From NCBI GenBank assembly GCA_030834095.1, contig JAURGA010000001.1, positions 40,018-104,017 on the forward strand: a DNA stretch of 64,000 nt, in the 5' to 3' direction. Positions 26,013 to 28,580 of this stretch are shown piece after piece. Below the pieces are notes generated by a model. That model saw only the letters and a list, made by a program, of their open reading frames with translations. It did no database searches and had not been told where the DNA came from. This stretch comes from Candidatus Nanopelagicales bacterium (GTDB taxonomy: Bacteria; Actinomycetota; Actinomycetes; Nanopelagicales; Nanopelagicaceae). The translations under genes and the position numbers were made by a program. Every line of letters starts with the position of its first letter. Position 1 is the stretch's first letter.

Positions 26013-27098
26013 TTAATTGATTCGTTCTCCGGAATTAGCATCAAATAGATGAACTGCTGATGCAATTGCATTAACCGAAATAGTGTCACCTGGCTTAGGT
26101 GGATTCTTTGGATCCCAACGCACAATTACTTGGGCACCCTCATCAGTTTCTTGGGCAAACTTAATGCTCTTATCTGCTGGCTTTCCATAGATAAATGCAT
26201 CAGAGCCAAGCTCTTCAACAACTTCAACTAGAACATCGAAGCCACCTGAAGCAGCAGGAGTAAATCCTTCTGGGCGAACACCGACGGTCACAAGTGCACC
26301 AGCGCTTACTGGAACATCAACACTAAATCCACCAAGGTTTGCTTTACCGCCAGAAACTGGAACGTTTAGCAAGTTCATTGCAGGCGAGCCTATGAATCCA
26401 GCGACGAATGCATTTGAAGGCTTGTCGTAAAGATTGCGAGGCGTATCGACTTGCTGTAGCAAACCATCCTTTAGCACTGCAACGCGATCTCCCATGGTCA
26501 TCGCTTCAACTTGATCGTGTGTTACATAAACAGTTGTGATTCCAAGGCGGCGTTGTAGCGCAGCGATTTGAGTACGAGTTGCAACGCGAAGCTTTGCATC
26601 CAAGTTTGAAAGTGGTTCATCCATCAAGAAAACTTGTGGTTCTCGAACAATTGCGCGACCCATTGCTACGCGCTGGCGTTGTCCACCAGAAAGTGCCTTT
26701 GGTTTGCGATCTAAATAATCTTCAAGGTCAAGAAGTTTTGCAGCTTCTTTAACGCGGCGATCACGTTCGGCCTTATCTACACCAGCAATCTTTAGTGCGA
26801 AGCCCATATTTTCAGCGACGGACATATGTGGGTAGAGCGCGTATGACTGAAACACCATTGCAATATCGCGATCCTTAGGTGCAACGTGAGTCACATCTTT
26901 ATCGCCAATACGAATTGATCCAGTATCAACTTCTTCTAGGCCAGCGAGCATGCGGAGTGATGTTGATTTTCCACAACCAGATGGGCCAACTAGAACAAGG
27001 AATTCACCATCATTAATTGTTAGATTTAATTTATCTACTGCAGGCTTGGTGGTGCCTGGATAAACCCGTGATGCGTTTTCAAAGACGACTGATGCCAT
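26013..27098 (-). CDS. msiK: Sugar ABC transporter ATP-binding protein, MsiK/UgpC/MalK family
   Basis: VGPSGCGKSTSLRMLAGLEEVDTGSIRIG, LSGGQRQRVAMGRAIVREPQVFLMDEPLSNLDAKLR, TVYVTHDQVEAMTMGDRVAVLKDG. No permease nearby, consistent with a shared ATPase. Confidence 0.88.
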   Translation of the reverse strand: MASVVFENASRVYPGTTKPAVDKLNLTINDGEFLVLVGPSGCGKSTSLRMLAGLEEVDTGSIRIGDKDVTHVAPKDRDIAMVFQSYALYPHMSVAENMGFALKIAGVDKAERDRRVKEAAKLLDLEDYLDRKPKALSGGQRQRVAMGRAIVREPQVFLMDEPLSNLDAKLRVATRTQIAALQRRLGITTVYVTHDQVEAMTMGDRVAVLKDGLLQQVDTPRNLYDKPSNAFVAGFIGSPAMNLLNVPVSGGKANLGGFSVDVPVSAGALVTVGVRPEGFTPAASGGFDVLVEVVEELGSDAFIYGKPADKSIKFAQETDEGAQVIVRWDPKNPPKPGDTISVNAIASAVHLFDANSGERIN

Positions 27099-27110
27099 TT
27101 TCTTCCTCCT

Positions 27111-27270
27111 TTTCCGGGCAGGTACGTGCCCGACGATCCTTTGGATAAAGGTAAAGCTGGTAGTTCGCGCTCGGGTGAGCGTTGCCTTAGGTTACGCGCC
27201 CGCCGCCGCTTTGGCTATCGGAAGCCCGGAAATCAGCATTTCCCTTAAGGTAAAGAAGTTACCCTTACGC
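27111..27270 (-). ncRNA. Candidate structured 5' leader (msiK-RNA-like) of the ABC ATPase
   Basis: Six closely spaced inverted repeats (27115-27132, 27136-27146, 27168-27181, 27213-27226, 27228-27243, 27246-27267) in a GC-richer intergenic region, ending just before the minus-strand AGGAGG and ATG. Confidence 0.55.
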
Positions 27271-27272
27271 CT

Positions 27273-28580
27273 GTGAGCATTCAAGTCCTCGGCGATATTG
27301 GCATAGTCCTCTTGTTTATCGGGACTGCCGGGATCTTCGTGGCAGCCGAGATTGCTCTGATCTCGCTTCGAGAGTCACAGATTCGCCAGCTTGCGGGCAA
27401 GGGCAAGCGCGGAGACCGAGTCGTTGCACTGACGAAAAATCCAAATGGGTTTCTAGCAGCAGTTCAAATTGGAATTACCTTCCTTGGCTTTCTTTCAGCG
27501 GCATTCGGTGCTGAGCGATTGGGCAGATACATCTCTCCAGTATTTGAAGATTGGGGATTGTCAGAAGGAGTAAGTAAAACCCTTGCGCTTATCTCGATAA
27601 CTATTGTCATTGCATATGTGTCATTGGTATTTGGCGAACTCGTTCCCAAACGTTTGGCACTTTTTCGAACTGAGATAATTGCGCTCGCCGTCGCGCCACT
27701 TATTGATTTCACCGCAAAGGTTTTTCGCCCGGTAATTTGGTTGTTATCTAAATCAACGGATGCCATCGTTAAGATTTTTGGAATAGGCGCTAAAGAGATT
27801 AGAAATGAGATTTCTGAAGCTGAATTAGCTGAATTGGTCTCGGGCCACACTTCGCTGAGTGATGAAGAGCGTGAAATTGTCGAAGAGGTTTTTGCAGCTG
27901 GCGATCTTCAACTTCATGAAATTATGGTTCCAAGAACTGAAGTTGATTTCATGGATGTTGGCCTTTCAATCACGGATGCAATAGCTGTTGCAATTGAACA
28001 TTCACATTCTAGATATCCAGTAACTCGTGGCAGCACAGATGAAGTTATCGGCTTTCTCCATGTCCGTGATTTATTAAATCCAAAGATTCATTCTTCTGCC
28101 GGCGAAACAATTTTGGATTTAGTTCGCCCAGTACTCAATCTACCCGGAACAAAGGGAGTTCTTCCCGCCCTTGCTGAAATGCGATCTAAACGAAGCCACA
28201 TAGCGGTAGTCCTAGATGAATACGGTGGCACTGATGGAATCATCACCCTTGAAGATTTAGTTGAATGTTTAATTGGGGATATCCACGATGAATATGATTC
28301 CGAAGAGGTTGAAGTAACTCCACAGGCAAGAACCGGAGAGTTCGAAATTGATAGTTTGATTTCACTCGAGGATCTATTTGATGAAACTGGAATAGTTCTC
28401 CCAGAAGGTCCATATGAAACTGTAGGTGGATTGGTTATGGATCACCTAGGGCGGATTCCAGAACCTCATGATTCAATAACCGTCAACCAAGTTCAGATTA
28501 CAGTTCTGACAATAGAAGGAAAACGCGCTGGGCAATTATTAATCTCAAGTAATAAATGGAAAGATACACCTCATGAATAA
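27273..28580 (+). CDS. CNNM/CorC (HlyC-type) DUF21-CBS membrane protein
   Basis: DUF21 membrane domain; [66 protein letters not shown]. Confidence 0.9.

Follow-up and report, generated by a model that had tools for sequence, protein, structure and literature searches.

The window analysed here, meaning the whole stretch of 64,000 nt, comes from Candidatus Nanopelagicales bacterium (assembly GCA_030834095.1, contig JAURGA010000001.1, positions 40,018-104,017, forward strand). Within it, a spacer of 174 bp (27099-27272) separates msiK, on the minus strand with its ATG at 27098, from a divergent CNNM/CorC-HlyC family gene on the plus strand. MsiK is encoded by a single gene in this genome, the next paralogue being 47% identical over residues 19-280, and SugC and MalK are among the best PDB relatives of the protein. 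A preliminary description had regarded the entire spacer as one multi-hairpin leader of msiK, richer in GC than its flanks and closely packed with six inverted repeats, and had suggested that it might contain the msiK RNA motif. The GC content of the spacer is indeed 54.6%, against 44.7% for the window, with 45.9% and 43.9% in the genes on either side. The features recognized at the locus are as follows.

26013-27098, minus strand: msiK, encoding an MsiK/UgpC-type ATPase of carbohydrate ABC importers, 361 aa (NF008653, 460 bits, cut-off 432)
27100-27158, minus strand: msiK RNA, RF01747, model positions 1-60, full length (cmscan, 63.6 bits, gathering threshold 33, E = 3e-13)
27105-27112, minus strand: Shine-Dalgarno sequence AAAGGAGG (from the sequence; computed P1 pairing of its GG 0.86 in the window)
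27108-27114, minus strand: 3' arm of the basal stem P1, GAAAAGG, overlapping the Shine-Dalgarno sequence (Rfam alignment)
27115-27132, minus strand: apical hairpin P2, CGGGCA-CGUACC-UGCCCG (Rfam alignment; pair variation in relatives)
27133-27143, minus strand: conserved 11-nt bulge CAAAGGAUCGU (family consensus CAACGGAUCGU), the presumed recognition site (Rfam alignment)
27144-27150, minus strand: 5' arm of P1, CUUUAUC, partner of the Shine-Dalgarno strand (Rfam alignment; compensatory changes in relatives)
27168-27181, minus strand: hairpin P0, CGCUC-ACCC-GAGCG, at the predicted 5' end of the transcript and outside the Rfam model (stem excess, double changes, anchoring to the -10 box, G.U bias)
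27189-27194, minus strand: predicted -10 box TAACCT of msiK, in the conserved block GCGTAACCT (genus footprint, order-wide position)
27260-27265, plus strand: likely -10 box TACCCT of the CNNM gene (TTACCCTTACGCCTGTGA block kept by most of the genus in the alignment)
27273-28580, plus strand: divergent CNNM/CorC-HlyC family membrane protein gene, outside the RNA (Pfam CNNM, CBS and CorC_HlyC domains)

All six inverted repeats of the preliminary description were found where it had placed them, and their density is unusual for the window. Its 174 bp hold six perfect inverted repeats that do not overlap, with 31 bp of stem in all, whereas the window averages 2.9 repeats per stretch of this length, and only 1.5% of the 174-bp stretches of the window equal it in repeat count and 0.1% in amount of stem. 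Hairpin density alone is no proof of a regulatory RNA, however, because the whole spacer folded as one RNA showed no excess stability over dinucleotide shuffles (z = +0.34); nor is the predicted leader unusually stable (z = -0.81). This folding result would suit a spacer that is simply a GC-rich divergent promoter region, its inverted repeats due to chance and no regulatory RNA encoded, but the Rfam match, its conservation throughout the order and the compensatory changes described below contradict chance repeats and make such an explanation extremely improbable.

Across the whole window, the msiK RNA (RF01747) is the sole Rfam family detected at gathering level (cmscan, Rfam 15), with a full-length match on the minus strand that scores nearly twice the gathering threshold and is the one copy in the genome; the motif that had been suggested from the sequence, and the model search proposed for it, were thus both borne out. 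The element is a member of the described msiK RNA family, with which it shares its sequence, a long hairpin carrying an 11-nt bulge between paired basal and apical stems, a ribosome-binding site within the basal stem and a position directly upstream of msiK, as in other Actinobacteria (RF01747; PMC2864571). In the window, P1 pairs 27150-27144 with 27114-27108, one of the pairs being an A-A mismatch. The GGAUCGU of the bulge is nearly invariant in the loci read, as is the P2 loop CGUACC. The bulge in the genus of the window differs from that of the family at 27140-27143 (minus strand), where the genus mostly has CAAA and sometimes CAAT, whereas the family has CAAC and most relatives CAAC or CTAC; the CAAA reading lengthens no helix and leaves a local repeat, AUCC-AAA-GGAU. 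A possible pairing between bulge and loop (GG..CG with CG..CC) was also considered by eye, and covariation is uninformative for or against it because both sides are almost invariant.

Both Rfam helices show the compensatory changes among relatives that the preliminary description had named as a check. Thirty distinct leaders from one part of the order preserve both stems in 99-100% of cells; the compensatory changes among them run from C-G to A-U in P1 and from G-C to A-U in P2. Outside the order, the variable outer pair of P2 is C-G, G-C or U-A in all 94 of 94 distinct sequences (85 in the best of 300 shuffles), and the third pair of P1 is formed in 81 of these 94 (best shuffle 74). The earlier placing of a hairpin immediately before AGGAGG and the ATG was correct: the Shine-Dalgarno sequence AAAGGAGG (27112-27105) overlaps the P1 strand 27114-27108, so that the ribosome-binding site lies within the basal stem. 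For 80% of 229 distinct relatives, the computed probability that the Shine-Dalgarno GG is paired in P1 exceeds 0.5, pairing being weak in about a fifth of the relatives, and translational control by occlusion is supported by this pairing in most relatives.

Of the 296 genomes of the order, 262 have the msiK RNA, among them all 108 that are near-complete. Sampling of the class gave 203 positive genomes out of 395, and a phylum sample gave 24 out of 398. All 24 belong to the same class, and none was found outside it in that sample. An MsiK-like ORF lies directly downstream of the core in 221 of 224 testable loci (tblastn of MsiK against the downstream DNA), and among the strong matches msiK was the only gene found behind the motif. 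Genomes outside the order with two good copies carry two msiK paralogues with the RNA before each, and the element has therefore been duplicated together with the gene; the RNA was seen before two different paralogues at loci L063 and L168 of one genome, L093 and L169 of another, and L172. Two weak extra matches of 28-29 bits (L170 and L171), in two genomes where a better copy is present as well, have no detectable MsiK-like gene downstream and are possibly decayed copies. MsiK-like genes with no core upstream were encountered as well, the named loci including Modestobacter, Nocardia testacea, Amycolatopsis, Saccharopolyspora and Crossiella (core-less loci L215, L224, L228-L231, L233, L237, L240, L242, L244, L245, L250, L252 and L253). 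These lineages either lost the RNA or never acquired it, unless the gene concerned is a paralogue.

The transcript that would carry the core is predicted to start at ~27181-27183, from a consensus-based assignment of the -10 box TAACCT. Within the genus of the window, the conserved blocks are CGCGTAACCT together with P0, and the core together with the Shine-Dalgarno sequence, with a variable linker between them. The GCGTAAYCT block occurs nine times in the genome, too few for a promoter-motif control on other genes, and GCGTAACCT occurs at msiK only. In Corynebacterium glutamicum the motif is transcribed from a start 29 nt upstream of it (PMC3890552), in C. diphtheriae it lies in the transcript (PMC5784534), and in S. 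lividans it has been reported as predicted and validated (PMC8079986). On the minus strand, the predicted leader contains no start of an ORF of 20 aa or more. A start of the ATPase transcript inside 27100-27130, which had been raised as an objection to a regulatory RNA at this site, is at odds with the predicted start at ~27182. The view of the whole 174-bp spacer as one leader has to be given up, however, since transcription toward msiK is predicted only for the part from ~27182 to 27099.

The six repeats are three different kinds of thing, and it is conservation that tells them apart. Two of those proposed as leader stems were retained, 27115-27132 being the apical stem of the msiK RNA and 27168-27181 the conserved 5' hairpin P0; those at 27136-27146, 27213-27243 and 27246-27267 were not. 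As an RNA helix, the repeat at 27136-27146 (AUCC-AAA-GGAU) would pair P1 bases with the conserved 11-nt bulge, and it is absent from the Rfam structure. The repeats at 27213-27226 and 27228-27243 are unconserved in the genus and lie upstream of the predicted start. The sixth (27246-27267) overlaps the likely promoter of the CNNM gene; its left half is not conserved, and its right half, the only part kept in the genus, belongs to the promoter-like block TTACCCTTACGCCTGTGA, so the repeat is regarded as a by-product. The TACCCT of this block stands seven bases before the CNNM GTG at 27273, and judged from this spacing the mRNA of the CNNM gene is probably leaderless, with that GTG as its start.

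Upstream of P1, the leaders contain a further hairpin, P0, that lies beyond the Rfam model, which has 60 positions and begins with unpaired bases; only one long hairpin is mentioned in the main text of the msiK RNA description (Weinberg et al., 2010; PMC2864571). Stem formation in the 34 nt before P1 (-46 to -13) was compared with dinucleotide shuffles in 116 non-redundant leaders and was strongly in excess (Fisher 2.4e-16 in the order and 1.8e-7 in other Actinomycetes), with no such excess in two control stretches further upstream (stem score p = 0.24-0.85). The boundary of this test was set at the P1 arm; with a cut at -20 the 3' arm is missed and the z-scores are weak. Compensatory double changes occur in five of the five pairs tested, in 14 cells against 3.9 in shuffles (unmodified MAFFT alignment, fixed columns), and shifting the register of P0 abolishes the pairing. 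RNAalifold did not propose P0 on the MAFFT alignment, the reason being that some rows have the variable hairpins out of register.

The position of P0 is tied to the predicted promoter. In the order, its first paired base lies 8.3 +/- 2.7 nt after the TAnnnT hexamer (6-10 nt in 58 of 68 leaders), and the linker from P0 to P1 measures 5.3 +/- 5.5 nt. Leaders of the Streptomyces type have a hairpin AGTYCAC...GTGGACT 6-9 nt after a TAGCGT-like hexamer in 21 of 28 cases, counted with the best stem chosen automatically and linkers of up to 40 nt. This near-constant distance from the -10 box leads to the prediction that P0 is the first structure of the transcript. The comparison covers msiK leaders only, which is the main limit on regarding P0 as specific to msiK.

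A palindrome just after a transcription start could also be a DNA operator bound by a transcriptional repressor, an alternative that suits the position of P0 and the good conservation of its sequence within the genus of the window and within Streptomyces. Against this, the sequence differs strongly among genera (TGGTCC-ACCC-GGACCA, TGAGTCC-ATCC-GGGCTCA and TGATC-ACCT-GATCA, for example), with both arms changing together. A second argument comes from imperfect pairs: G.T and A.C are equivalent in a DNA palindrome, each being the opposite-strand reading of the other, but they are not equivalent in an RNA hairpin. Where a stem of the P0 region has a single internal position that departs from Watson-Crick pairing, G.U exceeds A.C on the msiK strand by 31 to 11 (13:5 in the order and 18:6 elsewhere), a bias that is unexplained by DNA symmetry. 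The share of G.U is also higher than the 1/6 that random non-pairs would give (p = 5e-5 and 2e-4, values that are optimistic because related sequences are not independent). An operator thus appears rather improbable, and the covarying pairs, together with the preference for G.U over A.C, point to RNA of the msiK strand; as far as sequence comparison can tell, this indicates that P0 is an RNA hairpin.

From the order of the window to Streptomyces, the msiK leader would thus consist of two parts, the core and a covarying P0 held at a near-fixed distance from the predicted start and independent of its distance from the core, and we are inclined to think, with some reservation, that the known description misses a functional half of the leader. 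P0 is a modest new point, the core being already known. Stabilizing stem-loops at the 5' terminus occur on bacterial mRNAs, for example ompA, and P0 would resemble them in lying at, or a few nt from, the predicted 5' end of the transcript; it differs in preceding a known cis-regulatory RNA and in recurring through a family of leaders, and a stabilizing role is here only inferred.

The structure suggests a model in which P1 would hide the Shine-Dalgarno sequence from the ribosome, giving a low rate of msiK translation, and in which something binding the bulge and loop would shift the equilibrium of P1; a surplus of MsiK, or else a dedicated partner, would lock P1 closed. P0 may serve as a cap at the 5' terminus, shielding the mRNA or insulating the core, and such a cap would add control of mRNA lifetime to the translational control exerted by the core. 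Taken as a whole, the model of Shine-Dalgarno occlusion by P1 is considered highly probable, any particular ligand clearly less so. One ATPase serving several sugar importers is established for MsiK of Streptomyces and assumed for the organism of the window; since one ATPase probably serves several importers here, the most plausible signal would be the amount of MsiK itself. Weinberg et al. (PMC2864571) had already placed the ribosome-binding site in the basal stem and proposed MsiK-mediated feedback, and their main text gives no ligand for the family. Autoregulation is unsupported from the protein side, since an exploratory protein comparison found no MsiK residue that separates loci with the RNA from those without it, a result with which MsiK as the ligand is still compatible.

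Alternatively, the msiK RNA could be a metabolite riboswitch: a sugar, sugar phosphate or nucleotide would be bound in a pocket made by the bulge and loop, and P1 would close or open in response. Near-invariant single-stranded residues throughout the class, combined with variable stems, are what a small-molecule pocket would give; the structure is nevertheless small, a single bulged hairpin, only msiK is found behind the motif in strong matches, and Weinberg et al. (PMC2864571) describe msiK genes as unresponsive to glucose. A riboswitch is accordingly viewed as possible but unlikely, and control by the amount of MsiK is preferred.

To our knowledge, the msiK RNA has been without a known ligand since its description in 2010. 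It is close to obligatory throughout an order of small-genome actinobacteria and stands before msiK only, second copies of the gene included. The msiK-like genes that have no core (in Modestobacter, Amycolatopsis and others) provide natural controls, and constructs cut to the Rfam boundaries would omit P0, a conserved part of the leader.
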